Assembly: GCF_000230555.1 (NCBI RefSeq)
Contig: NC_016078.1
Coordinates: forward strand, 124,001-188,000
Direction of reading: 5' to 3'
Origin: Pelagibacterium halotolerans B2
GTDB taxonomy: Bacteria > Pseudomonadota > Alphaproteobacteria > Rhizobiales > Devosiaceae
Length of the DNA stretch: 64,000 nucleotides
The notes under the pieces were generated by a model that saw only the letters and a list, made by a program, of their open reading frames with translations, was not told the DNA's origin and did no database searches. A program made the position numbers and the translations under genes. Below, piece by piece: positions 44,079-61,576 of this stretch. Each line of letters opens with the position of its first letter. Position 1 is the first letter of the stretch.

Positions 44079-44150
44079 CCCTTTTCCTTGTGTTCATTCA
44101 TAAGGATCGATGAGCACACGGGGAAGAGTGTCGATAGTTAATATTTTCTG

Positions 44151-44158
44151 TGTCGACA
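44151..44158. promoter_or_regulatory. Proposed GntR operator between regulator and dehydrogenase genes
   Basis: TGTCGACA palindrome within TTTTCTGTGTCGACAGA, 54 bp before the dehydrogenase ATG and 72 bp before the regulator start. It shares its core with 43287-43296. Confidence 0.5.
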
Positions 44159-44212
44159 GAGAACTTGCTCATGGCTATACACGCTGTTGTGCTGAACAGG
44201 GATCGGGTTGCC

Positions 44213-45445: not shown

Positions 45446-45455
45446 GAAGAGCTTG

Positions 45456-46457
45456 ATGAGCCAGCATACATTCCAATGCATCGACGGACACACCTGCGGC
45501 AATCCGGTGCGCCTTGTGACGGGCGGAGCACCCATGCTCAAGGGCGATACCATGCTGGAAAGGCGCGCGCACTTTCTGGCCGAATATGACTGGATCCGTA
45601 CCGGGCTGATGTTCGAGCCGCGCGGCCATGACATGATGTCGGGCTCCATCCTTTATCCGCCCACCCGTCCCGATTGCGAAGTGGCGGTATTGTTTATCGA
45701 AACGTCGGGCTGCCTGCCTATGTGTGGCCACGGGACCATCGGCACCATCACGATGGCCATCGAGAACGGGCTCATAAATCCGCGAGAGCCGGGCAGATTG
45801 TCGATCGAAACCCCGGCAGGCAAGGTTGATATCACCTATCGTCAGGAGGACCGGTTCGTCGAGGAAGTGCGCCTGACCAATGTCGCCTCATTCCTCCACG
45901 CCGAAGGATTGACCGCCGAGATTGAGGGCTTTGGGGAGCTTGTTGTCGATGTGGCCTATGGCGGCAACTTCTATGCGATCGTCGAATCGCAAAAGCTGTT
46001 TCGCGACATGGCTGATTTCACCGCCGCCGAGCTCATCGGGCTGTCTCCGAAATTGCGTGCCGCGCTTAACGAAAAATATGAGTTCGTCCATCCCGAGCAT
46101 CCGCAAATCAGCGGGCTGAGCCACATCCAATGGACCGGACAGCCGACCCGGCCCGGAGCCACGGCCCGCAACGCCGTCTTTTACGGCGACAAGGCGATTG
46201 ACCGATCCCCATGCGGCACCGGCACGTCGGCGCGCATGGCGCAGCTTGTTGCAAAGGGCAAGCTCAATATTGGCGACGAATTCGTCCACGAAAGCATCAT
46301 CGGCTCACTTTTCAACGGGCGCGTCGAAGCAGCGGCGCAAGTAGGAGAAACCCAAGCGATCGTTCCCTCAATCGGAGGTTGGGCGCGTCAGACCGGGTTC
46401 AATACCATCTTCATCGACGACCGGGACCCCTATGCGCACGGCTTCACTGTGATTTAA
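45456..46457 (+). CDS. 4-hydroxyproline 2-epimerase (proline racemase family)
   Basis: The start is the ATG at 45456 with AGAAGAG upstream. The 333-residue protein begins FQCIDGHTCGNPVRLVTGG. It has both catalytic cysteines, in LPMCGHGTIG (Cys90) and DRSPCGTGTSARMAQL. The Cys/Cys pair marks racemases and epimerases; trans-3-hydroxyproline dehydratases have Thr at the second site. The G-N-P-V-R-L start and size fit the hydroxyproline epimerase subgroup. It converts trans-4-hydroxy-L-proline to cis-4-hydroxy-D-proline, the substrate of the enzyme before it. Confidence 0.88.
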   Translation: MSQHTFQCIDGHTCGNPVRLVTGGAPMLKGDTMLERRAHFLAEYDWIRTGLMFEPRGHDMMSGSILYPPTRPDCEVAVLFIETSGCLPMCGHGTIGTITMAIENGLINPREPGRLSIETPAGKVDITYRQEDRFVEEVRLTNVASFLHAEGLTAEIEGFGELVVDVAYGGNFYAIVESQKLFRDMADFTAAELIGLSPKLRAALNEKYEFVHPEHPQISGLSHIQWTGQPTRPGATARNAVFYGDKAIDRSPCGTGTSARMAQLVAKGKLNIGDEFVHESIIGSLFNGRVEAAAQVGETQAIVPSIGGWARQTGFNTIFIDDRDPYAHGFTVI

Positions 46458-46474: not shown

Positions 46475-47377
46475 TCACACCGCCAGCGACTTTGTCGGAC
46501 GCGGTGCGCCACCAATCGATTGAACCGATAGCGATCCGGCCGCGATGCCCGCATCGAGGCAGTCACCAAGCGGGCGTCCTGCCAGATAGGCGTCGATCAG
46601 TCCGGCGTTAAAGGCATCGCCGGCCCCGGTCGTATCGACCACATGAACTTTTGGAGCCCTTGCCGATAGCCGGATCGTACCTGCACCGAGTAGCCCACCG
46701 GCGCCGCCGCATTTGATCGCGACCACGGGAAAATATGCGGTCAGGACTTCCAGCGCTTCGGTCACGTCGGGTTTGCCCGTGATGGCGATGGCCTCTTCGG
46801 CATTGGGGAGAAAAATATCCACGCCGGTGCAAGCTTCGAGCAGACCCGGCTTGCTGATGAGAGTTTCATCCCAACTGGGGTCGAGCGCCACAGCGAGCCC
46901 GGCCGCCTTGGCCTGTGAAACGAGATCGGGCTGGTCGGCAAGCGTTGCATATTCGGCTATGTGCAAAAGTGCGGCCCGTTCCCACGTCAGCGCATTTGCA
47001 AACTGTGCAGGAATCGACCGGCCCGCCCTGCAGGAAAGGAATGCCCGATCTTCGGCGCCGGTCATCACAACGGTGACCTGCGGTCCGGCATCGGCCCTGC
47101 GCTCGATAAAGCCCAGGTCGATGCCGCTTGTCTCCAGTTGCGGCGCCAGCACCTCGGACAACGGATCGGTGCCATACGAGGCAAGCAGGGCTGCTGGGCG
47201 GCCCAGTTGGATCAAATGGGCAGCAGCGATGAAGGCGCCCCCACCCAGCACCGGGTGCATGGAACGTGCAAAAACCTCCCGGCCCATTTGCGGCATGCCT
47301 GAGAGCTCGGCGAAAACAAGGTCGCAATAGATGCGGCCGACGCTGACGACAGCGTCGCGCGGCGATTTCAGATTCAT
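46475..47377 (-). CDS. PfkB-family sugar kinase
   Basis: The 300-residue ribokinase-type protein has the N-terminal VSVGRIYCDLVF and GGGAFIAAAHLIQLGRPAALLASYGTD, and the C-terminal signature VVDTTGAGDAFNAGLIDAYLAG with the catalytic Asp. It phosphorylates a sugar or sugar-like imported molecule. Its start overlaps the stop of the ABC ATPase gene (ATGA), placing it at the end of the ROK-regulated operon. Confidence 0.88.
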   Translation of the reverse strand: MNLKSPRDAVVSVGRIYCDLVFAELSGMPQMGREVFARSMHPVLGGGAFIAAAHLIQLGRPAALLASYGTDPLSEVLAPQLETSGIDLGFIERRADAGPQVTVVMTGAEDRAFLSCRAGRSIPAQFANALTWERAALLHIAEYATLADQPDLVSQAKAAGLAVALDPSWDETLISKPGLLEACTGVDIFLPNAEEAIAITGKPDVTEALEVLTAYFPVVAIKCGGAGGLLGAGTIRLSARAPKVHVVDTTGAGDAFNAGLIDAYLAGRPLGDCLDAGIAAGSLSVQSIGGAPRPTKSLAV

Positions 47378-48447
47378 AGACGCCCCAGGGCTTTTTCGCT
47401 CTCGGCGTCGAAAAGATAAAGACTGCCCGGCGCGGCCCAGGCCGTAACGATGCTGTCGACCGCTGGCAAAAGCTTGCTTGGCGCGGTGGCGATCGCCGAG
47501 GATCCGGCTATATCGAGATGCACAAGCGTTTCCGAGCCCAAAGGCTCAACGGCGGTCACCTTGCCCTCGAATGCCAGGGCAGCATTGTCCGGCGCCTCTC
47601 CCACCAGCAGGTCATGAGGTCTCACACCGACTAGGACATTGCCCGAGCCGGTCGCTGGTAATGTGCCTTTGATCTTGGCGCCTGCGGCCGTCAGGCCGTC
47701 CCCCGAGGCCGTTCCATCGATGAGATTCATGGACGGACTGCCGATGAACCGCGCTGTGAAAACATCGATCGGACTCTCGTAAAGCTCGGTCGGCGTGCCG
47801 ACTTGAAGGATCAGCCCATCGCGCATCACAACGATCCGGTCGGCCATTGTCATGGCTTCGATCTGGTCGTGCGTGACATAGACGATGGTCGTTCCAAGCC
47901 GCTGGTGCAGGCGCTTGATCTCGATGCGCATCTGCGAGCGCAATTGTGCGTCGAGGTTGGACAGTGGCTCGTCGAAGAGGAACGCGGCCGGATCGCGCAC
48001 CATGGCGCGCCCGATAGCGACGCGCTGGCGTTGCCCGCCCGAGAGTGCCGCCGGACGGCGTTCGAGCAGATCCTCGAGCCCCAATATCTTGCCGGCTTCG
48101 GCAATGCGTTGCTGCTTTTCAGCCTTGGAAAGTTTGGAGGTATAAAGCCCGAACCCGATATTCTGACCCACCGTCATGTGGGGATATATCGCATAGTTCT
48201 GGAACACCATGGCGATGTTGCGCTGCTTGGGTTCGTACTGGTTGACGATGGTGTCACCGATCTTGAGCACGCCGCCGGAGATTTCCTCGAGCCCGGCAAT
48301 CATGCGCAGGGTCGTCGATTTCCCGCAGCCCGATGGCCCGACAAAGACAACGAACTCGCCATCGGCGATTTCGAGGTCGATGCCATGAACGGCGGTCACC
48401 TTGCCATAGCGCTTTACAAGGCCTTCCAACTGGATTTCTGCCATCAC
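47374..48447 (-). CDS. Sugar ABC transporter ATPase (UgpC/MalK type)
   Basis: The 357-residue protein has Walker A GPSGCGKST, signature LSGGQRQRVAIGRA, Walker B FLFDEPLSNLDA, YVTHDQIEAMTMADRIVVMRDG and a C-terminal TOBE region (VLVGVRPHDLLVGEA). It is similar to but distinct from the ATPase at 24357. It overlaps the stop of the ArgH-like gene by 4 nt and probably energises the permeases at 49950 and 50810. Confidence 0.92.
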   Translation of the reverse strand: MMAEIQLEGLVKRYGKVTAVHGIDLEIADGEFVVFVGPSGCGKSTTLRMIAGLEEISGGVLKIGDTIVNQYEPKQRNIAMVFQNYAIYPHMTVGQNIGFGLYTSKLSKAEKQQRIAEAGKILGLEDLLERRPAALSGGQRQRVAIGRAMVRDPAAFLFDEPLSNLDAQLRSQMRIEIKRLHQRLGTTIVYVTHDQIEAMTMADRIVVMRDGLILQVGTPTELYESPIDVFTARFIGSPSMNLIDGTASGDGLTAAGAKIKGTLPATGSGNVLVGVRPHDLLVGEAPDNAALAFEGKVTAVEPLGSETLVHLDIAGSSAIATAPSKLLPAVDSIVTAWAAPGSLYLFDAESEKALGRL

Positions 48448-49946
48448 GCCGCTCCTAAAAGTGCATTGAATTTATCGTTGAGTTCTTTGTGCGCGCTTTT
48501 CAGCGTTTCGGTGCGCCGGGCCGCCTGATCGAAGAACCCTCTGAGCTTCTGGCGATATCGACCAAGGGAGGCACGCAGCGCGGTGGGCGCCGGGCCGCCG
48601 AGCCGGTCGCGGACCGAAACGAAATGCCGCGCCGAGACCAGTTCGGCAAATCGTTCGGGTGAAAGGGTCGAAGCCCTCCCGGTTGCCGCTTCAAATGCGG
48701 ACGCAAAGGGCGCATACCCATCCTCGACAAGTGAGCCGTCCGCCGCGACCACCGCCTTTGCCACGGCTGCCGAGACTTCATGTGCCTGCCGGAAAGACAG
48801 ATCTTCGAGTCGGACGAGACTGTCGGCCAATTCGGTGATGGTAATGCAGGAGCGCTTGGTGTTGATATCCACCCGTTCGGGGTTGATCGAGACCTGCGCG
48901 ATCAGCGCGGTGAAAAGGTCGAGCACGCGATAGGCGGCATCGAACACCTGATAGCCCATGGCCTGGCTTTCCCCCTCGCTGTCGTTCATGTCGGTAAAAG
49001 GCGTGTTGTGCATGATATCGAGCATCGCCTTGGCGCGGCCATAGGTCTGGCTGGCCAGGTGGCGCAGGTGCTCGATGGGCACCGGATTGCGCTTTTGCGG
49101 CATGATCGATGAAATCTGGACCAGCGCATTGGGCACGTAGAGCTGGCCCACCTCAAAGCTCGACCAGACCTGAAAATCCTGGATGGGGCGCCCCAGATGG
49201 AGAAAGCTGAGCGCCATCGCGCCATAAATGCCGGTGATGTAATCGACCGACGCAATACAGCCATAGGAATTTTCCAGCGGACGGGCAAACCCGAGCAACT
49301 CGGCCACCCGCTCGCGGTCGATGGGGAAGCCCGAAGTGGTGATGGCTGCCGCTCCCATGGGCGAAAGATCGATCACCTCGATCGCGGATTCCACTTTTTC
49401 GATATCGCGGATCAGCACCTCGGCCATGGCGCCCAGATAATGCCCGAAGGTCGTCGGCTGGGCCGGCTGCCCGTGCGTGTAGGCAACGATCAGCGTTTCG
49501 GCTTCACGCTCTGCCGTCGAAAGAACGGCATCGAGCAGGACCCGCATCTTTTCGAGCAGCATCTCGGTGCGCGGCTTGAGCCCGAGCTTGAACAGCGTGT
49601 GATCGATGTCGTTGCGCGACCGGGAGGTGTGCAGTCGCCCGGCCAGATCGGGACCGAGGCGGGCCTTGAGATTCTTTTCGATCAGGAAGAAGAAGTCTTC
49701 GACCTCGCCGGTATAAACGAGAGTGTCGAGATCGATCTCGTCATCTATGGCAACCAGTGCTCTTGCGATCGAGGACGCTTGTTGGCGTGTGAGGATGCCG
49801 GTTTCGGCCAGCATGACCAGATGCGCCCTGTCGATGGCCCTGAACCCGTCGGCGTGATGATCCTTGGCGCCGTCGAAAAGCGGGCGCAGCACGGTCTCCT
49901 TGTAAACGGGATCGGGAAAAACGCTCGTATCTCTCATTGAGGCCAT
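48444..49946 (-). CDS. Argininosuccinate-lyase-like protein inside a sugar import operon
   Basis: The 500-residue protein belongs to the fumarase/aspartase superfamily. It has HTSRSRNDIDHTLFKLGLK, AYTHGQPAQPTTFGHYLGAM, QISSIMPQKRNPVPIEHLRHLAS (the flexible signature loop) and NDSEGESQAMGYQVFDAAYRVLDL. True argininosuccinate lyases have about 460 residues, GSS in the loop and an AQPISFAH-type stretch; here the loop reads ISS and the protein is longer at both ends. As it sits between permease and ATPase genes with coupled starts, a catabolic C-N lyase on an imported compound is more likely than arginine synthesis. AAGGG lies 9 nt before the ATG. Confidence 0.82.
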   Translation of the reverse strand: MASMRDTSVFPDPVYKETVLRPLFDGAKDHHADGFRAIDRAHLVMLAETGILTRQQASSIARALVAIDDEIDLDTLVYTGEVEDFFFLIEKNLKARLGPDLAGRLHTSRSRNDIDHTLFKLGLKPRTEMLLEKMRVLLDAVLSTAEREAETLIVAYTHGQPAQPTTFGHYLGAMAEVLIRDIEKVESAIEVIDLSPMGAAAITTSGFPIDRERVAELLGFARPLENSYGCIASVDYITGIYGAMALSFLHLGRPIQDFQVWSSFEVGQLYVPNALVQISSIMPQKRNPVPIEHLRHLASQTYGRAKAMLDIMHNTPFTDMNDSEGESQAMGYQVFDAAYRVLDLFTALIAQVSINPERVDINTKRSCITITELADSLVRLEDLSFRQAHEVSAAVAKAVVAADGSLVEDGYAPFASAFEAATGRASTLSPERFAELVSARHFVSVRDRLGGPAPTALRASLGRYRQKLRGFFDQAARRTETLKSAHKELNDKFNALLGAA

Positions 49947-49949
49947 CGA

Positions 49950-50810
49950 TCAGCCCTTCAAACCGGCAAGCATCACACCGCGCACGATGTAACGCTGCAG
50001 GACGAGGAACACCAAAAGGGTGGGAATGGTGGCCAGCGCGGCGCCGGTCATGATCATTTCCCATTGGATCGATTGCTCGACGGCAAAGCTCGAAAGTCCA
50101 ACCGGCAACGTGTAGAGCTCGCGGCTGTTGGTGACGATGAGCGGCCAGAAAAAAGCCGTCCAGTTTCCAAGGAAGGTAAAGATCGCCAAGGCGGATATTG
50201 CAGGCGCCACCATGGGCATGGCGATCTTCCACCAGATGGTGAATTCGTTCAGCCCGTCGACCCGCGCCGCTTCGAGGAAATCGTCAGGCACCGTTTCGAA
50301 GAATTGCTTCATCAGGAATGTGCCGAAGGCCGTCATCATGCCCGGGAACATGATGCCCCAATAGCTGTCGATCCAGCCCAGTTGCGCGCTCATCAGATAC
50401 CACGGGATCACCAGCATTTCGGTGGGGATCATCAGGGTAGATAGGATGGCGATGAAGATCAGGTAGCGCCCGCGGAACTGGAATTTGGCCAGAGTGTAGC
50501 CGACCAGCGAGTCGAAAAAGACGTTCGATAGGGTCACGCAGACTGCAACCAGCGTGGAATTGAAGAACCAGCGCATGAAGCGCCCGTCCGAAAGCACCTT
50601 CAGGTAATTGTCGAAAGTGGGTGCTGCCGGAATCAACCTCAGGTCGTAAACCTGTCCGGCCGTCTTCAGTGACGTTGAAAACATGAAGAGCAGGGGCGTT
50701 ATCATCAGCACCCCGCCGATAAACAGCAGTGTCCAGGTCAGGACCCGGCCCGGACGGATGGAGGCGCTGTTGAGCCTGAGTTCGGTGTTCGTGGCAGCGG
50801 TGGCAGTCAT
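49950..50810 (-). CDS. Sugar ABC transporter permease (MalG/UgpE type)
   Basis: The 286-residue protein has six membrane helices, MITPLLFMFSTSLKTAGQVYDLRLIPAAPTFDNYLKVL near the N-terminus and the EAA loop EAARVDGLNEFTIWWKIAMPMVAPA; it ends QRYIVRGVMLAGLKG, the usual MalG-type C-terminus. It starts with a TGATG junction on the preceding permease gene. Confidence 0.92.
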   Translation of the reverse strand: MTATAATNTELRLNSASIRPGRVLTWTLLFIGGVLMITPLLFMFSTSLKTAGQVYDLRLIPAAPTFDNYLKVLSDGRFMRWFFNSTLVAVCVTLSNVFFDSLVGYTLAKFQFRGRYLIFIAILSTLMIPTEMLVIPWYLMSAQLGWIDSYWGIMFPGMMTAFGTFLMKQFFETVPDDFLEAARVDGLNEFTIWWKIAMPMVAPAISALAIFTFLGNWTAFFWPLIVTNSRELYTLPVGLSSFAVEQSIQWEMIMTGAALATIPTLLVFLVLQRYIVRGVMLAGLKG

Positions 50811-51742
50811 CAGCGCGTCCTCAGAACCCAGAGCTGAAGCAGGGAAACGATGAGAAGGATGGTAAAGAGCACCACCGTCTGCGCCGCCGCATAGCCCATG
50901 TTGAAGGAAGAAAATGCAGTCTGGTAAATCATGAGAACCAGGGGCTTTGTTGTATTGAGCGGCCCGCCGGGGTCATTGCTTGTCATGTTGTAAACCTGAT
51001 CGAAAATCCGCAGAAAGCCGATCGAGGAAAAGACGACGAGGAACACAGTCGTCGGCTTGAGCAATGGAAGCGTGATCTTGCGCAGGATCGCCCATTCGCC
51101 CAGCCCGTCGATACGTGCGGCCTCGTAGTAGGTTTGAGGAATGGCCCTCAGGCCAGCCATGAATATGATGATCTGGAACCCCAGCCCCGCCCATATCGCG
51201 GTGACCATGATAGCGGGTAGGGCCTGTTCGGTGGATCGCAGGAAGGGCTGCGCCGGCAGGCCGGTGACGCCCAAAAAGCCGTTGATGATGCCGATTGGCG
51301 GGGGTTGGTAAAACCAGCGCCAAACCCAGGCCATTGCTGCAGCCGTGGTCAGGAACGGGAGAAAATAAAGCGCGCGGATGAAGCCGTGCATAAAGCGCAC
51401 GCGGTCGAGATAATAGGCAACCGCAAACGAGATGACGAGGCTGATCGGCGTGCCGATAATCAGATAAGCGAATGTATTGCGGAACACCTGCCAGAACAGG
51501 GGATCGTTATACAGCTTTGTGTAGTTCTCGATGCCGATGAATTGGGCCGGGCGTAGCAGGTCCCAATCGGTGAACGAGAGCCAGAAAGCCTGTACCGTGG
51601 GATAAAAACGGATAACGACATAAAATACCACGGGCAGAGCCAGGAAGGTCCAGACCCAGATCAGCCGCTTTTGTCCGATGCTGAGCCGGTTCCAGGTCCC
51701 TGATGGCTCCACGGTGCCACTTGCCGATACTGCCGAAGTCAT
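50810..51742 (-). CDS. Sugar ABC transporter permease (MalF/UgpA type)
   Basis: The 310-residue protein has six membrane helices, FYPTVQAFWLSFTDWDLL, IGIENYTKLYNDPLFWQVFRNTFAYLIIGTPISLV and the EAA loop EAARIDGLGEWAILRKITLPLLKPT. This is the standard partner for the MalG-type permease after it. It follows the binding-protein gene across a 111-bp gap with two hairpins. Confidence 0.92.
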   Translation of the reverse strand: MTSAVSASGTVEPSGTWNRLSIGQKRLIWVWTFLALPVVFYVVIRFYPTVQAFWLSFTDWDLLRPAQFIGIENYTKLYNDPLFWQVFRNTFAYLIIGTPISLVISFAVAYYLDRVRFMHGFIRALYFLPFLTTAAAMAWVWRWFYQPPPIGIINGFLGVTGLPAQPFLRSTEQALPAIMVTAIWAGLGFQIIIFMAGLRAIPQTYYEAARIDGLGEWAILRKITLPLLKPTTVFLVVFSSIGFLRIFDQVYNMTSNDPGGPLNTTKPLVLMIYQTAFSSFNMGYAAAQTVVLFTILLIVSLLQLWVLRTR

Positions 51743-51769
51743 CGCCTGCCACTCCTGCTGATTTGCCCA

Positions 51770-51844
51770 GGTGGGCCGGCCGGTCTGTTGTCCGGCCGGT
51801 TCACCTCTGAAGTCACAAGACTGGACCGGCAGTACACCGGTCCA
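51770..51844 (-). other. Two hairpins between binding-protein and permease genes
   Basis: On the minus strand the binding-protein stop is followed by TGGACCGG/CCGGTCCA with a 7-nt loop (51822-51844), then by a longer stem built on CCGGCCGG twice (51770-51805). There is no T-tract. In sugar operons such structures usually keep binding-protein mRNA in excess over permease mRNA. Confidence 0.6.
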
Positions 51845-51853
51845 ATCCCATTG

Positions 51854-53116
51854 TTACTGGTTGGCGTAGAATTCGTCGAGAATGGCCTGTTCCTCCGCAG
51901 CGGCGGCAGCCAGAGAATCCGCAGGCGACTGACCCTGCAGCGAGATGCGGCTTTCCATATCGATCGCCACCTGACGCTGGGCAGCCTCGTCCACGAAGAT
52001 TGTGGTGTGGGCATATTCGAGCCCCGCCAGGAACGGACCATAGATTGGGTCTGAAAGGTTTTCCTCGGTCAGGGCAACCTCTTGGCGAGCGGGCAGTTCG
52101 CCCACCACTTCGAGCCAGATTTCCATGGCCTCGGGTGAACTGATATAGGCAAGGAACTTCTGGGCAGCCTCGAGTTCTTCCCCCTCGGCGCGCGCGCCGA
52201 TGGCGTTGGCGAAATAGCTCGCATAGTTCGAACGCATACCGTCTTCATTAGCCGGCAGCTCGGTGACGCCCCATTCGAAATCAGTGATTTCGCTGAACGC
52301 GCCGAGCCGGAAAGTGCCGTCAATGGTCATCGCGGCGCGGCCGGCGCGGAACGCGGCCTGAGGTTCGTCCATGAAGGCGATCTGGGTCACCGCATCGTCG
52401 CCCAGATAGAGATCTGCCTGCCATGTGGTTGCGGCGAGGCCAGCTTCGTCATTGTAGGTGACCGTGCGGCCGTCGTCCGAATAGGGTTGGCCACCGAACT
52501 GGCGGACGAGGCCCTCGCGCCACCACTGATGGTCCTGGCCCGCCATACCCATGGCAATGCCGACCGACGTGATGTTGCCGCCGCCATCGCGCTGTACGGT
52601 CGCCTGCGCGGCCTCGACAAGCTCATCGAGCGTTTGGGGTGGGCTTTCGGGATCGAGCCCGGCGGCTTCGAGAATGTCCTTGTTGTAGAACAGGGCCAGC
52701 GAACGGACCGCGGTGGGCAGGCCCCAGTACTGGCCGTCACGTTCCATCGCAGAAACGATCGGGAAAAAGTCCGATTCGATGTCCTCGGTCGGGAAGACGT
52801 CCGGATCGAGCGGCTGGATCAGCCCGCCGGCGATGAAATTGTCGAGCCAGCCATAAAAGAGCTGCGCCACGTCGGGTCCCTGTCCGGCTACATTGGCGGC
52901 CACGACGCGCGTCTGGTAATCGGCATAGGGAAAGGTCTGGTGGTTGACCGTGATGTCGGGATTGGCTTCTTCGAAATTGGCGATCAGCTGGTCCATGGCC
53001 TGAACGCGCGTGTCGAATACATACTGCCAGTATTCGATTTCGACGGCCTGGGCCGAGCCCAGCGCTGCCAGGCTGACGCCGGCTGAAAGTGTGGTCACCG
53101 CAAGTGCTCTACGCAT
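51854..53116 (-). CDS. Sugar ABC transporter substrate-binding protein
   Basis: The start is the ATG at 53116 with GGAGGG 7-8 nt upstream. The roughly 420-residue protein has a signal peptide ending AQA, then VEIEYWQYVFDTRVQAMDQLIANFEEANPDITVNHQTFPYADYQTRVVAAN, GPDVAQLFYGWLD, WGLPTAVRSLALFYNKDILEAAGLDPE and AFRAGRAAMTIDGTFRLG, typical of family 1 sugar-binding proteins. It is the first gene of the operon and is preceded by a 25-bp ROK-type operator. Confidence 0.92.
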   Translation of the reverse strand: MRRALAVTTLSAGVSLAALGSAQAVEIEYWQYVFDTRVQAMDQLIANFEEANPDITVNHQTFPYADYQTRVVAANVAGQGPDVAQLFYGWLDNFIAGGLIQPLDPDVFPTEDIESDFFPIVSAMERDGQYWGLPTAVRSLALFYNKDILEAAGLDPESPPQTLDELVEAAQATVQRDGGGNITSVGIAMGMAGQDHQWWREGLVRQFGGQPYSDDGRTVTYNDEAGLAATTWQADLYLGDDAVTQIAFMDEPQAAFRAGRAAMTIDGTFRLGAFSEITDFEWGVTELPANEDGMRSNYASYFANAIGARAEGEELEAAQKFLAYISSPEAMEIWLEVVGELPARQEVALTEENLSDPIYGPFLAGLEYAHTTIFVDEAAQRQVAIDMESRISLQGQSPADSLAAAAAEEQAILDEFYANQ

Positions 53117-53227
53117 TTTGATCCCTCCTTTGGGAGCAGGGAAAACATGTCCCTGCACGATTGTGTGGCAGCTCGGACCCCTCCGTCCACCATCCGGTCA
53201 TCGTCAAATGATGTGCGCCACCTTGTC

Positions 53228-53252
53228 AATAAAATAATTTACTTTCGTTATT
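53228..53252 (+). promoter_or_regulatory. Proposed ROK-regulator operator 1
   Basis: 25 bp: AATAAAATAA, TTT, then ACTTTCGTTATT. It is an imperfect palindrome (AATAA at the left end, TTATT at the right) located 112 bp before the binding-protein start codon. It agrees with the two other copies at most positions: A(A/T)TAAA-N-TAA at the left, ACTT-N2-GTTATT at the right. Confidence 0.65.
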
Positions 53253-53355
53253 AGTGGGGCCCGTTGAGCCGATTGCCCCTTGGCGTAGCCTGCAAAATGG
53301 ACACAATGCCCATCTCGCGCCATTCCGAATGGTTCGCAGCCTGCCGTGGCGCGGG

Positions 53356-53380
53356 ATTAAATTAATCTACTTGTGTTATT
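53356..53380 (+). promoter_or_regulatory. Proposed ROK-regulator operator 2
   Basis: 25 bp: ATTAAATTAA, TCT, ACTTGTGTTATT, 61 bp before the TTG start of the ROK gene. The right half is identical to the copy at 60591-60615. Confidence 0.7.
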
Positions 53381-53441
53381 CGGGTGGCATGCCTAATCTT
53401 GAGGTCCGATAGCGCGCGTCCAATCGGTAAGAGGGAACACC

Positions 53442-54683
53442 TTGACCAGTTCGGAAAAGCAGGGTCGTGGTCCGCGCCTTGTCATAGGATCCAATCCGGA
53501 GCGCAACCGCGCCCACAATCGGCGCGTCGTTCTCGAGGTCATCAGGACCCATGGGCATATGGGGCGCACCGAAATTGCCCGCCGCGCCCACATCACACCT
53601 CAGGCGGTTGCCAATATCGTCGATGAACTTCTGGGCGAAGGCATGCTCGTGCAACTGGGCCGCCTGCGCTCAGGCCGTGGCCAGCCCCCCATCCAGTTCG
53701 CGATCAATCCCGACGGACCGCTGACCGGCGGGGTGGAAATCGCTGCCGACCATATCGCGACAACGCTGCTCGATCTTTCCGGCGCAGTCCGCGCTCAGGC
53801 CATCTCTCCTCTCCAATCGGCCACGCCCGATCAGGTGCCCGGTCGGGTCCTCGATGAGATCGACAAGCTCTGTGCCCGTATCGGTGCCTCGCGCGACCGC
53901 TTGATCGGCGTTGGCGCCGTGATGCCGGGTCCGTTCGAGATCGAAGGCATGAGTTCGGTGGGTCCGGCAACCCTGCCGGGGTGGAAAGGCATCGACGCCA
54001 AGGCCACGCTGTCCCGGGCCATCGGCCAACCGGTATCGATCGAAAATGATGCGACGGCCGCAGCGGTTGGTGAGCGGCTCTATGGGGCAGGGCGCCAGAT
54101 TTCCAATTTCTGCTTTCTGTATTTCGGCGTGGGCCTGGGCCTTGGCGTTCTTAAGGACGGCGTTCCGTTGCGCGGCGCTTTCGGCAATGCCGGTGAAATC
54201 GGCCATGTTGCCCTGGTTCCCCGCAACGGGGTTGCGCGCTATGGCCCCGAAGGGGCACTGGAGCGCTTTGCATCTCTTTATGCCCTGCGCGAGAAACTGG
54301 CGGAAAGCGGGCGCCCCAACCTCGATAGCGAGGCTCTTGAACCGCTTTTCGCCAGGAATGATCCGGTGCTTGCCGCTTGGATCACGGAAGCGGCCGATTA
54401 TCTGGCGCCCACCGTTGCCATGATCGAAAACATCTTCGATCCCGAAACCGTAGTGTTTGGCGGCAATCTTCCCGACGTCATCCTCGATGCATTGATCGCT
54501 GCGCTCGAACCGCTGCCGGTTTCCGTTTCCACCCGCGCGGGACGAACTCAACCGCGAGTCGTCCGCGGCCAGACCGGGCGGTTCACTGCGGCGTTGGGTG
54601 CTGCTGCGCTCGCGCTGCACGATGTCTTGTCGCCTCAACTCTCACTCGAATATTCGCCGGCGGTCGCGACCGCACGGCCTTAG
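53442..54683 (+). CDS. ROK-family transcriptional regulator (NagC/XylR type)
   Basis: TTG start at 53442 with GAGGGAA 4 nt upstream. The 413-residue protein has a winged helix at residues about 24-75 (NRRVVLEVIRTHGHMGRTEIARRAHITPQAVANIVDELLGEGML) and a ROK sugar-kinase-like domain (LIGVGAVMPGPFE, PVSIENDATAAAVGERLYGAG, FLYFGVGLGLGVLKDGVPLRGAFGNAGEIGH). The zinc motif usual in ROK proteins (CxCGxxGC) is absent: after GEIGH the chain reads VALVPRNGVARYGPEGALE. It probably senses an amino sugar or its phosphate and binds the 25-bp sites at 53228, 53356 and 60591. Confidence 0.88.
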   Translation: MTSSEKQGRGPRLVIGSNPERNRAHNRRVVLEVIRTHGHMGRTEIARRAHITPQAVANIVDELLGEGMLVQLGRLRSGRGQPPIQFAINPDGPLTGGVEIAADHIATTLLDLSGAVRAQAISPLQSATPDQVPGRVLDEIDKLCARIGASRDRLIGVGAVMPGPFEIEGMSSVGPATLPGWKGIDAKATLSRAIGQPVSIENDATAAAVGERLYGAGRQISNFCFLYFGVGLGLGVLKDGVPLRGAFGNAGEIGHVALVPRNGVARYGPEGALERFASLYALREKLAESGRPNLDSEALEPLFARNDPVLAAWITEAADYLAPTVAMIENIFDPETVVFGGNLPDVILDALIAALEPLPVSVSTRAGRTQPRVVRGQTGRFTAALGAAALALHDVLSPQLSLEYSPAVATARP

Positions 54684-54691
54684 GACTATCC

Positions 54692-57048
54692 ATGCCCCTA
54701 TCGCGCACCCAGCTTTCTCATCGCTTTGGTCAACGTCGCACCAGCCCCAGGCTGGTCGCCCTGCATCGGATGCTGTCGCGGCTGAAGTCAACAGTCACCG
54801 TGCTTCACACGGGTGCCCATCCGGACGACGAGCAGAACGCGATGCTCGCTTTCATGCGCTTCAGGCTCGGCATGCGCACGGTTATCGGCTGTTCGACGCG
54901 CGGGGAGGGTGGTCAGAATACGCTCGGGCCCGAACGCGGAGGTGCCCTTGGGATCGTCCGGACCCGCGAGCTTGAAGAAGCGGCCAAGGTCATCGATGCC
55001 GATATCGTTTGGTTCGGTTTCGGCCCTAACGATCCTGTCCATGATTTCGGATTCTCCAAGAACGGCCAGGATACCCTCGAGCGCTGGCAGCACGACCTGA
55101 TCGTCGAGCGCATGGTTCGTGCCTATCGCAGCGAAAGGCCCGATATTGTCATCCCGACATTTCTTGATGTGCCCGGTCAGCACGGCCATCACCGCGCCAT
55201 GACCATGGCTGCCGAAGAGGCGATCGCGCTTGCCGCCGATCCCAACGCCTACCCCGAGCATTTCGTTCTGGGCCTGGCGCCGTGGCAGGTCACCAAATAC
55301 TACCTGCCCGCCTGGTCGGGCGGGGGCTCGACCTATGATGACGAGGTGCCGCCGCCACCCGAAACTGTAAAGGTGAGCGCGACGGACCCCGATTTCGCCA
55401 CCGGCATGCCCTTTGACGAGATCGGAGAGTGGTCGCGATTCTATCACGCCAGCCAGGGCATGGGGCGCTGGCCGGACGATCTGCGAACCGAATGGCCGCT
55501 TCACCTTCGCGTCGGACCGAACGACAACGGCGGCATTGCCGACAACATCCCGCGTCGGCTCGCCGACATCGTTCCGGGGCTTGCGGCCGCCGATACGGCC
55601 ATAGCGACGGCCATAGCCGCCTTCCCGAATGCCGATGACATCATCGCGCCATTGTCCGTGGCGCTCGAAATCATCGAAGCTCATGCCGATGTCGTCCCGG
55701 CCGAGCACCTCCACCGCATCGAAACCATGATCGCCGATCTCGAAGCTGCCATGTTGGTCGCGAGTGGCATCGATTGCGTCGCCGCGCTCGACAGAGAGGT
55801 TGTTGCGCAAGGCCAGACCGTCGATTTGAGCCTGACGCTTCGTGGCGCGCCCGCGGATGTTTCGATCGATGTCATTATACCCGAAGGCGTCTCGATCATC
55901 ACACAGTCACGGGGTCGATATACGCTCGAGGTTGCGCCCGATGCTCCGATCACCGACCCGTTCACCCAGACATACTCGGCCTCGGGAGCCAATGGTGATG
56001 CCTGCATAATCCTGACGCTGACCATCGCCGGGCGAACAATCTCGCGCGCCTTTGCCCTGGAGCGGCCGCTGACCATTGTGCCCGCGGCATCGGTCGACCT
56101 GACGCCCAGCGCCCTGCTGGTGGCGGCTGATTCGGAGTTTTCCGGCCTCTCCGTAGAAGCCAAGATCGAAGGTGGTGCCAACAAGCTGAGCCTTTCCAGC
56201 CTTGAGGGTGTCGAGATTTCACCGAGCCGGGATGGCATAACGCTCTCGGGAGGGGGCCTTATGGAGGGGCGCTATTCTCTCGATGTGATGCTCGACGATG
56301 CCCCCGCTTTCACCGCCAGCACAATCGATTACGCCCATATCGGCAAAAGTCTCTATCTCAGCCCCGCACGTATCGACATCCTTGCGCTCAAGCTTGCGCT
56401 GCCCCAGGACCGCCGCGTCGCCTATATCGGCGGGGGGGGCGCCACGACAATGTCGGGCGCTGGCTGAACCGCATGGGGTTCAAGGTGACCGAGCTCGATG
56501 CACCTGCACTTTCTGAAGATCTTTTGAAATTCCCCACCATCGTCGTCGGCCTTTTCGCCTTCGGCCTTCGTCCTGATCTGGCCGCGAGCGCTCAGGCGTT
56601 GCAAGCCTATGTCGAGGCTGGCGGTAATCTCGTCACGCTCTACCATCGCCCGTGGGATGGCTGGAATCCCGACACGGTCCCCCCGCGCTTTCTCAAGATC
56701 GGCCAGCCCTCGTTGCGCTGGCGGGTGACCAATCCCGAGGCGGCGGTTGAGATTTTGGCGGCAGATAATCCCATCCTTTCCGGTCCCAATCCGATCTCGG
56801 TGCGCGACTTTGACGGCTGGAACAAGGAGCGTGGCCTCTATTTCGCGTCCGAATGGGACCCGGCCTACAGCCCCCTCCTTGCCATGAGCGACAAGGGTGA
56901 AGCGCCGCTCGAAGGCGCATTGCTGACCGCCGAAATCGGCAAAGGGCGTCATACGCACACCAGTCTCGTCCTGCACCACCAGCTCGACAATCTCGTGCCC
57001 GGTGCGTTCCGGATCATGGCCAACCTCGTGGCGGGCGGCCGCATGTAG
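54692..57048 (+). pseudogene. PIG-L/LmbE-type deacetylase-like protein, frame broken at a G8 run
   Basis: The reading frame from the ATG at 54692 ends at 56467. The missing C-terminal part continues in another frame and is open to 57048 (its own ATG is at 56473). Comparison with the paralogue at 57994 shows where they join: the break is in the G8 run 56432-56439, and one more G or two fewer would restore one protein of about 785 residues (YIGGG, then RHDNVGRWLNRMGFKV). The N-terminal domain has HTGAHPDDEQNAML, STRGEGGQNTLGPERG and VPGQHGHHRA, the zinc-dependent N-deacetylase motifs. Unlike the paralogue it has no signal peptide, so it should be cytosolic. It may be a true pseudogene, phase-variable, or a sequencing error. 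It follows the ROK gene by 8 bp. Confidence 0.8.
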
Positions 57049-57939
57049 ATGGCCGACCCGGCGCCCTCTTACCGCAGCGGCATTGCCTGGCTTCTGGCCG
57101 ATATGACGCTGGTGACCGCAATGACCGTTCTCGTCAAGTTCGAGGGCGCCACCTATCCGGCGATCCAACTCGTATTCATCCGCTCGCTGATCGGGCTGGT
57201 GTCCATCCTACCGTTGGCCTGGCGCAAACGTCGCGCGGTCACCGGCACCAAACAGCCCTTCCGGCATCTGGTGCGCGTGGGTTGCAACACGTTGGCCCTG
57301 ACCTGTAATTTCACTGCGCTGGCGGCGCTGCCACTGGCGCTCGTCAATGCCATAGGCTTCATGCGTCCACTCGTTGTCATGCTGTTTGCCGCCTGGCTGC
57401 TGGCCGAAAAGATCGCTCCGGTACGCTGGATCGGCACCGTTATCGGATTTGCCGGCATCCTCGTCATTGTTGCACCGGGCGAAGTTGCATTTTCCTGGGG
57501 ACTTGCCGCTGCATTCGGCTCGGTGCTGTTCGGCTCACTGGCCGTTATCCAGATCCGCGCCATGGAAAACGAGGACACTGCCGTTCTCATGGTCTTTTAC
57601 ACTGTAGGGCTTTCGGTCCTGACCGCCATTCCCGCCGCGCTCGTCTGGCAGCCGGTAGCATTGGCCGATTGGCCGACATTGCTGGCCATCGGCATCCTGG
57701 CCCAGATCGGGCAGTATTGCTTCCTGCGTGCCTACCAGACGACCCCGGCGCGGATATTGGCTCCCCTGGGGTATCTGTCCATAGGCTTTGCCGCGCTCGC
57801 GGGGTTCATCTTTTTCGGCGAAATTCCCTCATGGGCAACGATCATCGGCGTGGCGATCATTCTCATTGCTCTGCAATCGACCAATATGCTCGAAGCGGCC
57901 GCGACCCGGCGCAAGGTCAATTCGGAGGCCGAACGATAA
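57049..57939 (+). CDS. EamA-family (DMT superfamily) transporter
   Basis: The 296-residue protein has ten membrane helices in two EamA repeats (AIQLVFIRSLIGLVSILPLAWR, ALPLALVNAIGFMRPLVVMLFAAWLLAEKI; then LAAAFGSVLFGSLAVIQIRAME, PARILAPLGYLSIGFAALAGFIFFGE). The ATG follows the stop of the PIG-L frame directly (TAGATG), so it is translated from the same mRNA. It may import or export a product of the deacetylase pathway. It is only distantly similar to the EamA gene at 10200. Confidence 0.8.
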   Translation: MADPAPSYRSGIAWLLADMTLVTAMTVLVKFEGATYPAIQLVFIRSLIGLVSILPLAWRKRRAVTGTKQPFRHLVRVGCNTLALTCNFTALAALPLALVNAIGFMRPLVVMLFAAWLLAEKIAPVRWIGTVIGFAGILVIVAPGEVAFSWGLAAAFGSVLFGSLAVIQIRAMENEDTAVLMVFYTVGLSVLTAIPAALVWQPVALADWPTLLAIGILAQIGQYCFLRAYQTTPARILAPLGYLSIGFAALAGFIFFGEIPSWATIIGVAIILIALQSTNMLEAAATRRKVNSEAER

Positions 57940-57964
57940 AAAAACGCCCCGGCGAACCGGGGCG
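57938..57964 (-). terminator. Rho-independent terminator for the minus-strand PIG-L gene
   Basis: On the minus strand CGCCCCGG and CCGGGGCG pair over a TTCG loop, followed by TTTTTTT. The 3' end of the T run overlaps the last bases of the convergent EamA gene. Confidence 0.9.
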
Positions 57965-57993
57965 CTCATCGTCACAACCGTAACCTTTGGCAA

Positions 57994-60486
57994 CTATTCG
58001 GCCGGCTGGACGAGATTGGCGAGCAGGCGGAATGCGCCCGGCACCAGATGATCGAGCTGATGGTGCAGGATCAGGCTGGTATGGGTATGCCGCCCGGCTC
58101 CGATCTGGGCCGAAAGCAACGAGCCATTCAGAGGATCTTCACCGGTATCGTGCATGGCCAGAAGCGGCTTATAGACCTCATCCCATTCCTCGGCGAAATA
58201 CAGCCCGCGCTCTTTGTCCCAGTTCGCCCAGTCGTCGGCCCCGATGGCATTGGGGTAGTTGAGCAAGGGGTGATCGGGTTCGAGAACGTCGACTTCGGCA
58301 TTTGCATCGGTGACGCGGAAGCGGATCGAGGGTGATCCGATCTTGAGGTAAGCGACGGGTATCGTCTCCGGATTCCAGCCATCGGAGGGGCGATGATAAA
58401 GGGTCACCAGATGCCCGCCATTGCGCACCCAGTCGTGGATGGCGGTAATGTTTTCCGCGAGATCCGGCCGTCGCCCGAAGGCAAATATGCCGACCACAAT
58501 AGTGCGAAGATCGCGATAGGTACCGCTCGAGATATCCTCGGGCGAGAGCTCCACGACATCGAGGCCCAGGCGCTCCATCCACAGCCCGACATTGTCGTTA
58601 CCTCCCGAGACGTACCCGATCCGCTTTACCGATGGCAGCTCGGCTCCGACCGCCTGTACGGGAACGGACACCGTTGTGGGGACGACCGATCGGCCGATAT
58701 GGGGGTAGGAGAAGGTGTTGATCTGATAGGCCCGCTCACCCAGCAGATCGGGTTCGATGTCAAAGCGTGACTGTTCGAGAGCGTTGGGCGGTACCAGTTC
58801 GAACGTTCCGCTCATCTCCGAAGCACGTTCTGTTTCATCGAGCGCCCAACCTTCGGGAACCGGCATGGTCAGATCAGCCAGCGTCGCGTTGTTGAGCGTC
58901 GCCGTCAGGGGAACGGGGGCCAACTCGGCCGTCGTGTTGAAAACGACAGCGCTCGGCTCGATCGTCATGGATGCCTTGGGGATGACACGCAACTGGTCTT
59001 CAAGATCGACGTCGAGCACAACCGTGCGCCCGCCGATATTGAGCGACACCCGTGTGTGCGCGTCGCCATTGCCCCCCAACGGGTCGAATTCTTCGCTGAG
59101 CGGGTTTGTGTAGCCGGCGTCTTCGGCGACCGAAACCGTCTCGCCCGAAGCTGATAGCCCCTCGCGCGCAACGATCTCGACGCCCTCGATTGTCACGTCC
59201 TCGGGACCATCCACAATGGTCTTGACGACCACTTCGTCACCTGGTGTGACGTCGCCGCCTTCGGTATAGGACCGGATTTGCACGCCCGCCGCAGCGGCAA
59301 GGGCAAGATCGATTTCCTTGACCTTGCGATCCAGCCGGTGCGCGACGTTGGCCCGCAATTCGTCAGGCAGCGTTTCGCGGGCCATGTCGATGATTTCGCC
59401 CACCCTGCCAACTTTGGCGAGCACGACGACGGGATCGCCATAATCGGCGATTGCCTCTTCGATCAACCCTTGAGCTTCGCGCAACGCATCTGCTGTGTCG
59501 GCAGGCATTCCGTCGAGTTCGGCAATGTCGCCGACCGTTGCGATCAGGCCCTCCCGGATATCGCTTTCCTCGCCACCTTCGCCGCCGCCGGTCACACGGG
59601 TGAGGTTGAGTTCCCATTCGGTCTGGGGCTCGGGACGCCAGCGGCCCATGCCCTGGGTCAGATGGCACGAGCGCGACCACTCGCCCATCTGTGGGAAAGT
59701 TGCGCCGGAAATCTTGTCGCGCTCGGGCGCCGTAACGACCAGTGTTACCGGAGGAGGCGGCACCTCGTCGTCATACACTCCACCGCCGCCGCCATAGGCC
59801 GGCTGATAGATTTTCGGCACTTCCCAAGTGTCGAGACCGCCGGCGATCTGATCGGGAAATTCTTCGGGATTGCCCGAGAGTTCGGCCGCAATGAATGTCG
59901 CGACATTGGCGGCCCGATGATGGCCGTGCTGGCCGGGAACGTCCAAAAAGCAGTTCATGATGATGTCGGGCTTGTACTTGCGGAACGCCGCCGTCATGCG
60001 CTCGACGATCTTGTCACGGCCCCACTGGTCGATGGTCTCGTTGGGGTCTTTGGAAAAGCCGAAATCGTGGACGGAATCGGTGTGCCCGAAGCTGCCGAAC
60101 GCCAGCGAGGCATCGAGCGAGCGCGAGGCTTCTTCCATTTCGCGGGTGCGCAGCACGCCCAGCACCGAGCCCAGTTCCGGCCCGATCGAGTTCTGCCCGC
60201 CCTCGCCGCGGGTGATGGCATAGACCACCGGATGGATGCCATAGACGTGCCGCAGCGCGGCGAGCATCGCCGAAGGTTCGTCATCGGGGTGCGCACCCGT
60301 GGTCATGATCGTTGCAGTGGAGGTCAGCCGCTCGAGACGGCGATAGAGGGTGACAATGGCCGGCTCGAGTTTCTGCTGGGCGATCAGGTCGAGATCGCTG
60401 AGCGGAGCCGCCCATGCCGGGATGTGCGAGGCTGCATACATCGCCGGCAAGGACGCAATGAACATGCGTCGTGTGATCTTGGTCAT
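57994..60486 (-). CDS. Exported PIG-L/LmbE-type N-deacetylase-like protein (830 residues)
   Basis: The N-terminus KITRRMFIASLPAMYAASHIPAWA looks like a Tat signal. Residues 65-70 are AHPDDE and 187-191 HGHHR, the zinc ligands and catalytic Asp of PIG-L deacetylases; RGEGGQNSIGPELG and DSVHDFGFSKDP are also kept. Residues about 430-560 form beta domains (GGDVTPGDEVVVKTIVDGPEDVTIEG) resembling the NEW3 type found in glycosidases. The last 200 residues (IGYVSGGNDNVGLWMERLGLDV, GGHLVTLYHRPSDGWNP, GRHTHTSLILHHQLDHLVPGAFRLL) look like a glutamine-amidotransferase-like fold. It probably removes N-acetyl groups from a sugar outside the cytosol. A ROK-type operator lies 105 bp upstream. Confidence 0.85.
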   Translation of the reverse strand: MTKITRRMFIASLPAMYAASHIPAWAAPLSDLDLIAQQKLEPAIVTLYRRLERLTSTATIMTTGAHPDDEPSAMLAALRHVYGIHPVVYAITRGEGGQNSIGPELGSVLGVLRTREMEEASRSLDASLAFGSFGHTDSVHDFGFSKDPNETIDQWGRDKIVERMTAAFRKYKPDIIMNCFLDVPGQHGHHRAANVATFIAAELSGNPEEFPDQIAGGLDTWEVPKIYQPAYGGGGGVYDDEVPPPPVTLVVTAPERDKISGATFPQMGEWSRSCHLTQGMGRWRPEPQTEWELNLTRVTGGGEGGEESDIREGLIATVGDIAELDGMPADTADALREAQGLIEEAIADYGDPVVVLAKVGRVGEIIDMARETLPDELRANVAHRLDRKVKEIDLALAAAAGVQIRSYTEGGDVTPGDEVVVKTIVDGPEDVTIEGVEIVAREGLSASGETVSVAEDAGYTNPLSEEFDPLGGNGDAHTRVSLNIGGRTVVLDVDLEDQLRVIPKASMTIEPSAVVFNTTAELAPVPLTATLNNATLADLTMPVPEGWALDETERASEMSGTFELVPPNALEQSRFDIEPDLLGERAYQINTFSYPHIGRSVVPTTVSVPVQAVGAELPSVKRIGYVSGGNDNVGLWMERLGLDVVELSPEDISSGTYRDLRTIVVGIFAFGRRPDLAENITAIHDWVRNGGHLVTLYHRPSDGWNPETIPVAYLKIGSPSIRFRVTDANAEVDVLEPDHPLLNYPNAIGADDWANWDKERGLYFAEEWDEVYKPLLAMHDTGEDPLNGSLLSAQIGAGRHTHTSLILHHQLDHLVPGAFRLLANLVQPAE

Positions 60487-60590: not shown

Positions 60591-60615
60591 AATAACACAA
60601 GTGAGTTACTTTATT
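60591..60615 (-). promoter_or_regulatory. Proposed ROK-regulator operator 3
   Basis: Minus strand, 25 bp: AATAAAGTAA, CTC, ACTTGTGTTATT. The right-hand 12 bases equal those of operator 2. The rest of 60487-60772 shows nothing else. Confidence 0.7.
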
Positions 60616-60772
60616 GATCGATCCGTGGATGATTTGAATAAGGAAATGGCGCAACTGCGCGCTCGGCGAGGGACTGCCTCCTGGGGAAGACAGTCGGTTT
60701 CGCGCTCTGCACTCGAGGGGAATGCACCCTTGCGCTCAGCCCGGGGGGGTGCCTCCGATCACAGACTGAACG

Positions 60773-61435
60773 TCAGATATATTCGGGCTTGGCCAGATAC
60801 CTGAAAACCATGTCGATGGTGTTCTGACGCAGACTTGCCTGGCTGTCTGCCGAGCCCATGTCGCGACCGAAAAGATGCGAAAAGGTTGCCCGGTTCGAAA
60901 CGTTGAAAAAGCACAGCGCGCTGATCTGCCAGTGTATTTCCAGCGGGTCCAGCCCTTCGCGGAAAACGCCTTCCTCGACGCCCTTGGCATAGATCGACCC
61001 GATCCGCGCGATGGCCGCCTCATTGACGGCGCGCAGCGCCGGCGAGCGCTCCATATAGCGCCCTGAATGAATATTTTCGATCATCACCATGCGGATGAAA
61101 TCCTCATGCTCGGAATGATGATCGAAGGTAAAACCGACGAGGCGACGCAATCCCTCTAGTGGTGGGAGGCTCTCGATATCGAGTTCTGCCTCCCCCTCGC
61201 GCACGACGCGATAGGCGTTTTCCAGCGCGCTGACATAGAGCCCCTCTTTGTCGCCGAAATAGTAGTAGATCATCCGTTTGCTGGCGCGGGTCTTTTCGGC
61301 AATCTCGTCGATGCGCGCGCCGGCCAACCCATTGAGAGCAAACTCGGTTGACGCGACTTCGATGATGTTGCGCCGCGTGCCTTCGGGGTCCTGCTGGCGT
61401 CGGCCGGGCCGCCCGGTGTTTTCGATACTGCTCAA
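60773..61435 (-). CDS. TetR-family transcriptional regulator
   Basis: The best start is TTG at 61435 with GAGGGCGGG 4 nt upstream; another TTG at 61465 is open. The roughly 220-residue protein has the TetR helix-turn-helix TRRNIIEVASTEFALNGLAGARIDEIAEKTRASKRMIYYYFGDKEGLYVSALE and an all-helical C-terminal domain (HHSEHEDFIRMVMIENIHSGRYMERSP, SALCFFNVSNRATF). It is divergent from the shikimate-dehydrogenase-like gene. The palindrome ACTAGT with arms GAA/TTC, found between them and again before the TRAP gene, is its likely operator. Confidence 0.88.
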   Translation of the reverse strand: MSSIENTGRPGRRQQDPEGTRRNIIEVASTEFALNGLAGARIDEIAEKTRASKRMIYYYFGDKEGLYVSALENAYRVVREGEAELDIESLPPLEGLRRLVGFTFDHHSEHEDFIRMVMIENIHSGRYMERSPALRAVNEAAIARIGSIYAKGVEEGVFREGLDPLEIHWQISALCFFNVSNRATFSHLFGRDMGSADSQASLRQNTIDMVFRYLAKPEYI

Positions 61436-61472
61436 TATCCCGCCCTCGCCACACAGAATCGCCAATTGACTA

Positions 61473-61490
61473 AACTAACTAGTTCGTACA
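61473..61490. promoter_or_regulatory. Proposed TetR operator A
   Basis: AACTAACTAGTTCGTACA lies between the TetR start (61435) and the start of the shikimate-dehydrogenase-like gene (61577). It matches the site at 63356-63373 in 17 of 18 bases. Confidence 0.75.
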
Positions 61491-61576
61491 TTAATCACCT
61501 ATTGTCGCGCCCGCATTTAGGTCGAGACGCTCGAAAAACACAAGGGCGGGTCTCAACCGCCCAAAGAGGATGCATT

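Follow-up and report, generated by a model that had tools for sequence, protein, structure and literature searches.

The gene cluster described here lies in a 64,000-nucleotide stretch of the Pelagibacterium halotolerans B2 genome (contig NC_016078.1, positions 124,001 to 188,000; hereafter the window), the genome comprising 3.95 Mb in two contigs. Leftward from position 53300, the cluster encodes a solute-binding protein, two permeases, an ArgH-like lyase, a UgpC-type ATPase, and a PfkB-family kinase. Rightward, it encodes a ROK-family regulator, a PIG-L protein, and a DMT transporter, followed by a gene facing back that encodes an exported PIG-L protein of 830 amino acids (aa). The gene families named in an earlier, sequence-only reading of this DNA (PfkB, sugar importer, ArgH-like, ROK, and both PIG-L proteins) were recovered by profile matches at or near the positions it had assigned to them (Table 1). 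The ATPase places the importer among CUT1-type sugar transporters, and the chains in the PDB nearest in sequence to the binding protein were mostly sugar-binding proteins; the gene of the latter may start at GTG (53158) or at an in-frame ATG near 53116. The regulator combined a ROK domain with a MarR-type helix-turn-helix (cut-off for the latter 24.6 bits).

Table 1. Features of the ROK-controlled cluster, in window coordinates.
Feature	Position	Strand	Support
PfkB-family sugar kinase, final gene of importer operon, proposed glucosamine kinase	46475..47377	-	PF00294 129.5 bits
UgpC/MalK-type ATPase of sugar importer	47374..48447	-	NF008653 465 bits, cut-off 432
ArgH-like lyase, argininosuccinate lyase superfamily, proposed fumarate-releasing	48444..49946	-	Lyase_1 137.6 bits
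ABC (ATP-binding cassette) permease, UgpE-type	49950..50810	-	PF00528
ABC permease, UgpA-type	50810..51742	-	PF00528
Periplasmic sugar-binding protein	51854..53158	-	PF01547/PF13416
Operator copy 1, importer promoter	53227..53252	+	pattern match, conserved in relatives
Operator copy 2, ROK promoter	53355..53380	+	pattern match, conserved in relatives
ROK-family transcriptional regulator, N-terminal helix-turn-helix	53442..54683	+	PF00480 143 bits, PF01047 24.8 bits
Cytosolic PIG-L protein, N-terminal and middle parts, stops at frameshift	54692..56467	+	PF02585 56 bits
Cytosolic PIG-L gene remainder, out of frame, C-terminal domain	56473..57048	+	one frame with N-terminal part in relatives
EamA/DMT-family transporter, end of ROK operon	57049..57939	+	PF00892 93.8 bits
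Exported (Tat-type signal) 830-aa PIG-L protein: PIG-L domain, beta-rich middle, ThuA-like C-terminal domain	57994..60486	-	PF02585 48.9 bits
Operator copy 3, exported PIG-L promoter	60591..60616	-	pattern match, conserved in relatives

Related loci (numbered with the prefix L) were ranked by their likeness to the exported PIG-L protein. The 78 loci analyzed come from the 80 highest-ranked of at least 579 candidates and include related genomes that are not independent of each other; 16 of them were classified as exported type (at least 54% identity to the exported PIG-L of the window). Six core genes, i.e. those for the binding protein, two permeases, ATPase, ArgH-like lyase, and ROK regulator, occurred all together in 58 of the 78 loci. 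Counted singly, the ArgH-like gene was present in 66, ROK in 69, PfkB in 43, and DMT in 46 loci. The 12 loci without an ArgH-like gene consisted of five with a lone exported PIG-L gene and seven in which the fetched stretch ended short. Because these loci had been found through PIG-L, a reciprocal search was made with the ArgH-like protein in 385 genomes of the class and 398 of the phylum. It returned 15 loci, 11 of which had a PIG-L gene within the same stretch; none was present in the fetched stretches of L145, L146, L147, and L150. The ArgH-like family is uncommon (12 of the 385 class and 6 of the 398 phylum genomes, own genome counted in both), all matches in the phylum sample fell in the same class, and the cluster type occurred in 8 of 13 genomes of the genus Pelagibacterium. 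Conservation of the neighbourhood, on which the sequence-only reading had made its proposal depend, was thus borne out from both sides, and the genes almost certainly form a single conserved catabolic regulon.

The same reading had noticed one operator-like sequence at the importer, ROK, and exported PIG-L promoters. A search with its 20-base core (AATAAYTNACTTNNGTTATT, up to 3 mismatches) returned 3 sites in the window and 0 in every one of 100 window shuffles. Genome-wide, 3 sites were found, all at this cluster (reversed control, 0). The consensus of the relatives (CAATAARATAATYYACTTGAGTTATT) matched 56 sites at up to 4 mismatches in the 78 loci; in the reversed loci, it matched 0 sites at up to 6 mismatches and 1 at seven. 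At least one site was present in 54 of the 78 loci. Among the 16 exported-type loci, the best-scoring site lay 93-224 bases upstream of the PIG-L gene in 14, seven of which scored above 12.9 (the highest score among reversed loci), while the other seven are supported by their constant position and mutual likeness; no operator-like site was found upstream of the exported PIG-L gene in L033 and L081. In two Aminobacter loci (L026 and L032), operator-like sites scoring 25.5 and 19.7 preceded exported PIG-L genes that lie apart from the cluster, which is found on another contig of the same named strains (L062 and L056). With operator copies at three promoters and the site conserved in relatives, one ROK regulon is supported, and we propose from these comparisons that the ROK protein binds this operator.

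Both PIG-L proteins belong to the LmbE-like/PIG-L superfamily (PF02585, cut-off 28.2 bits). The motifs HPDD and GQHGxH and the residues H66, D68, D69, H187, and H190 (exported numbering) were invariant in the 34 rows of the PIG-L alignment, a pattern of His-Asp-His metal ligands and base Asp as in Table 1 of PMC4101496. Export of one of the two, as read from the sequence earlier, is supported by a twin-arginine motif (RRxF), which all 10 exported-type members of alignment A1 carry and none of the 8 others does. Residues 619-830 of this protein form the ThuA-like domain, fused to PIG-L and carrying the conserved motifs GG, HHQ, and KERGLYF. Both proteins had been taken for de-N-acetylases. The family assignment was retained; the acetyl step may give way to amide hydrolysis, since the best NCBIfam model for the cluster PIG-L proteins was Mca and two other PIG-L proteins of the genome were best matched by BshB1, all with weak scores. 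The PIG-L step may therefore hydrolyse an amino-acid amide of glucosamine rather than de-N-acetylate it.

The cytosolic PIG-L gene, which the earlier reading had treated as a single open frame from 54692 to 57048, is broken in the window; the gene families and operators of that reading stood, the intact frame did not. The first open reading frame stops at 56467, whereas the conserved C-terminal region (56473-57048) is read in a different frame; the break coincides with or adjoins eight consecutive G residues (about 56431-56445). Separate searches with the two parts placed them in one frame in 76 of the 78 related loci, the match being the exported paralogue in loci without a cytosolic gene; L034 and L081 had no second PIG-L part nearby. 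All six genus relatives fetched for comparison (6/6) had the cytosolic gene in a single frame, and a programmed frameshift was rejected on this ground. The ratio of nonsynonymous to synonymous substitution rates (dN/dS) of the cytosolic parts was 0.08-0.11 against two relatives, like the 0.10 between those relatives; either the gene stayed under constraint until a very recent frameshift, or the break is a homopolymer sequencing error. The exported PIG-L protein evolves more slowly than the cytosolic one in this genus, with a dN/dS of 0.04 and, where both occur, identities of 94-95% versus 85-90%. In L034 (Devosia sp. A8/3-2), both PIG-L genes are in pieces in different frames, perhaps owing to sequencing errors.

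The cytosolic type alone was held by 62 of the 78 fetched stretches (at least two of the genomes concerned, both Aminobacter, have an exported PIG-L gene elsewhere), and five exported genes (L024, L026, L027, L030, and L032) had no cluster in the fetched stretch, although L027 is a short contig beyond which the cluster may extend. In L033, the cluster was accompanied by the exported type only. The two proteins thus look like parallel routes, and two successive deacetylations were set aside on these grounds.

In the ArgH-like lyase, the catalytic motifs were invariant in 24 of 24 alignment rows, and the nearest solved fold was that of EDDS lyase. It differs from the EDDS lyase of Chelativorans, which has Gln159 and Asp290, by His158 and Val289, and from argininosuccinate lyase (ASL) of T. 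thermophilus by Val in place of the Asp after the SSxMPQKKNP loop and by the segment HNTPFTDM around ASL Tyr320 (each in 24/24 rows). Unlike either enzyme, it sits inside a sugar regulon. Enzymes of the ArgH superfamily yield fumarate from 2-substituted succinates. The protein need therefore not cut a C-N bond, as had been supposed earlier; a malyl O-glycoside fits as well.

Further genes of the relatives point to the sugar. A ROK sugar kinase replaces PfkB in 8 of the 78 loci (L033, L049, L072, L074, L075, L081, L092, and L093; five were scanned with profile models). In four of these (L049, L074, L092, and L093), the kinase gene is adjoined by nagB with a 4-bp overlap; three of the NagB proteins were scanned and scored 219, 227, and 258 bits against the TIGR00502 cut-off of 237, which one passes. 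NagB-II, an unrelated SIS-type deaminase, occurs in L123 (NF046059, 313 bits, cut-off 430), with homologues of 44-49% identity in L146 and L151 (found through ArgH) and in L077 and L080 (found through PIG-L), and nagB is annotated in L125 and L127. Because some relatives have NagB or NagB-II in the cluster, the end product of the pathway is probably glucosamine-6-phosphate, on which the two kinase types and two deaminase types are predicted to converge. Six plasmid regions, chosen by eye among 27 records, were also inspected. Two of them, L123 (Roseomonas haemaphysalidis) and L125 (Paroceanicella profunda), hold the cluster with a ROK kinase and a glucosamine-6-phosphate deaminase and have no PIG-L gene in the stretch; these clusters may import a conjugate that is already deacylated.

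Accessory genes bear on the rest of the conjugate. A gene for a Cds1-type cysteine desulfhydrase is divergent from the exported PIG-L gene in four Devosia loci (L028, L029, L073, and L079; two were scanned, 528 and 536 bits, cut-off 600). A gene for an N-methyl-L-tryptophan-oxidase-like protein lies between both PIG-L genes in L025, L031, L034, and L064 (Devosia and one Rhizobiales bacterium); the L025 copy scored 426 bits (cut-off 257) and overlaps the cytosolic PIG-L gene by 4 bp, and the other three are 74-88% identical to it. All eight loci are of the exported PIG-L type. Bacillithiol, a thiol that many other bacteria produce, consists of cysteine, glucosamine, and malate (Cys-GlcN-malate). 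Taken together, cysteine, an N-methyl-amino acid, glucosamine, and a part released as fumarate therefore describe bacillithiol and N-methyl-bacillithiol. The latter is treated in PMC6282198, whose title implies that no bacterial thiols are more widespread than bacillithiol derivatives, and a bacillithiol S-conjugate amidase (Bca) is described in section 2.6 of PMC4101496. No match to BshC was found in the genome of the window by a search that was positive in 3 of 14 control genomes. Bacillithiol synthesis was therefore rejected, and the cluster would serve consumption. A Cds1-like gene (563.6 bits) also occurs in this genome away from the cluster, and the 4-kb stretch examined there (L128) contains no operator-like site.

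From the observed genes, operators, conserved neighbourhood, predicted folds, and accessory genes, we infer all reactions and the substrate of the following pathway. The ROK repressor would control the scavenging of an N-acylated glucosamine conjugate whose aglycone leaves as fumarate. The most likely substrate would be bacillithiol or N-methyl-bacillithiol set free by other bacteria, or an S-conjugate of either. (i) A PIG-L metallo-amidase outside the cytosol, or inside it (frameshifted here), would take the amino acid off the glucosamine nitrogen; (ii) the ABC importer would take up glucosaminyl-malate or the whole thiol; (iii) the ArgH-like lyase would eliminate fumarate from the malyl group, freeing glucosamine; (iv) PfkB, or elsewhere the ROK kinase, would form glucosamine-6-phosphate; (v) NagB or NagB-II would convert it into fructose-6-phosphate and ammonia; and (vi) cysteine would go to the DMT protein, possibly an exporter of the released amino acid, or to Cds1, and N-methyl-cysteine to the N-methyl-amino-acid oxidase where present. 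The logic of PIG-L, lyase, and kinase given by the sequence-only reading is supported, as are its regulon, neighbourhood, and PIG-L export; its order of steps was not retained. Taken as a whole, this appears to be a ROK-controlled gene set, conserved in soil and marine bacteria, whose products take up a glucosamine conjugate and break it down to glucosamine, fumarate, and an acyl part. Release of glucosamine by way of PIG-L and a fumarate-forming lyase is probable. Bacillithiol, or a compound close to it, has a slightly less than even chance of being the substrate, and we only tentatively propose a dedicated pathway of Alphaproteobacteria for the catabolism of bacillithiol and N-methyl-bacillithiol, in which an exported or cytosolic PIG-L amidase acts with a lyase that breaks the glycosidic bond by eliminating fumarate, without hydrolysis.

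Several observations weigh against this proposal. The cluster PIG-L proteins reached 24-45 bits with Mca (TIGR03446), far from the curated equivalog cut-off of 277, their closest structures were deacetylases, and the ThuA-like domain is left unexplained. As L123 and L125 have no PIG-L gene nearby, the amidase step is not always needed. Deaminase genes were few (6 of the 78 PIG-L-found loci, 2 of the 15 ArgH-found loci, and 3 of the 6 hand-picked plasmid regions); the window cluster has none, its genome gave no match to NagB (TIGR00502), and its NagB-II-like gene (C1:3910891, 44% identical to that of L123) is unlinked. Cds1 and the N-methyl oxidase are restricted to a single lineage and may neighbour the cluster by chance, and the operator-like sites by the four Cds1 genes scored 13.3, 13.3, 19.0, and 7.6, compared with 12.9 for the best reversed-locus site. 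Finally, the ArgH-like protein passes the TIGR00838 argH cut-off (286.7 versus 279.5 bits). The exported PIG-L gene of L031 is accompanied (5332-9773) by ABC ATPase genes, a dihydrodipicolinate-synthase-like gene, and a gene for a protein with a ROK kinase part; named by eye, they look like genes of sialic acid use.

The TIGR00838 score would suit a second argininosuccinate lyase, linking arginine metabolism to sugar uptake. We regard this as very improbable, because the genome has a separate argH-like gene at a different place (33% identity), genes with 32-34% identity occur in 12 of 13 genus genomes (cluster type, 8 of 13), the Asp and Tyr320 positions of ASL are altered throughout, and sugar import and PIG-L are coupled to the lyase. 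Slightly less improbable is the use of N-glycan remnants such as N-acetylglucosamine (GlcNAc)-asparagine, deacetylated by PIG-L and then cleaved by a C-N lyase on the asparagine part. PIG-L-type enzymes recognise GlcNAc cores according to PMC4101496, and EDDS lyase and ASL are C-N lyases. Such a lyase, however, would free ammonia instead of the sugar, the route would need an amidohydrolase in addition, and none recurred among the neighbours inspected (families judged by eye).

The order first proposed for this cluster, in which an N-acetylated glycoside is deacetylated outside, deacetylated again inside, and then cut at a C-N bond, agrees with both PIG-L genes being under one operator type. 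It is improbable given the cytosolic-only stretches, the exported genes without a cluster, L033 with the exported type only, and the broken cytosolic gene, a pattern that fits alternatives and not consecutive steps. A stronger competitor, albeit still unlikely, is an N-acetyl- or N-acyl-glucosaminide with a malyl or N-succinyl (aspartate-type) non-thiol aglycone, which PIG-L would deacylate and the lyase would relieve of fumarate before kinase and NagB take the glucosamine. All evidence for glucosamine and fumarate applies to it equally, the nearest PIG-L folds are de-N-acetylases, and 70 of the 78 loci have neither a Cds1-type nor an N-methyl-oxidase gene. It leaves Cds1, the N-methyl-amino-acid oxidase, and the ranking of Mca unexplained, and we know of no abundant natural malyl or N-succinyl N-acyl-glucosaminide other than bacillithiol intermediates.

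Compared with Mca/Bca and MshB/BshB of the LmbE-like superfamily, the cluster PIG-L proteins are long (about 800 aa), contain a beta-rich middle, end in a ThuA-like part, score under the curated cut-offs, and belong to a catabolic-type regulon in an organism without a BshC match. Sugar regulons of the NagC/Mlc type accompany GlcNAc and glucosamine catabolism. The present cluster resembles them in its ROK regulator, sugar kinase, and, in relatives, NagB or NagB-II, but adds PIG-L and an ArgH-type lyase, and its ROK protein scored far under the NagC and Mlc cut-offs. Staphylococcus aureus imports glutathione and breaks it down as a sulfur source (PMC10355420), likewise scavenging a low-molecular-weight thiol with importer and peptidase; the enzymes and the thiol differ. 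In the open-licence literature searched, we found no pathway for the breakdown of bacillithiol by another organism and nothing relevant on this gene set. Should the proposed pathway be true, the cluster would allow the bacillithiol of other organisms to be consumed, a family of roughly 800-aa PIG-L proteins would receive a function, the aspartase/fumarase superfamily would gain a glycoside-cleaving reaction, and genes annotated argH on several alphaproteobacterial plasmids would do something else.

In L142-L144, three of the loci found through ArgH, a PIG-L/ArgH-like pair occurs without the sugar importer and is adjoined by peptide-type ABC genes (SBP_bac_5 and permease domains scanned in L143 and L144; the three loci were assigned by order). 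Recurrent flanking families, mainly ABC-transporter genes (12/78 and 10/78) and agmatinase-like genes (5/78), all named by eye, were set aside. The same applied to a lactonase-like metallo-beta-lactamase (MBL) hydrolase of L122 (96 bits, cut-off 360), which was seen in 1 of the 78 loci at 33%. To the left, the cluster is adjoined by a hydroxyproline-type cluster (43347-46457) encoding a GntR/FCD regulator, a D-amino-acid-dehydrogenase-like protein, and a 4-hydroxyproline epimerase (PRK13971, 502 bits, cut-off 376). To the right (60773-62494), a TetR regulator gene is divergent from a shikimate-dehydrogenase-like gene (PRK12549, 377 bits, cut-off 235); both are also close to the exported PIG-L gene in L069.

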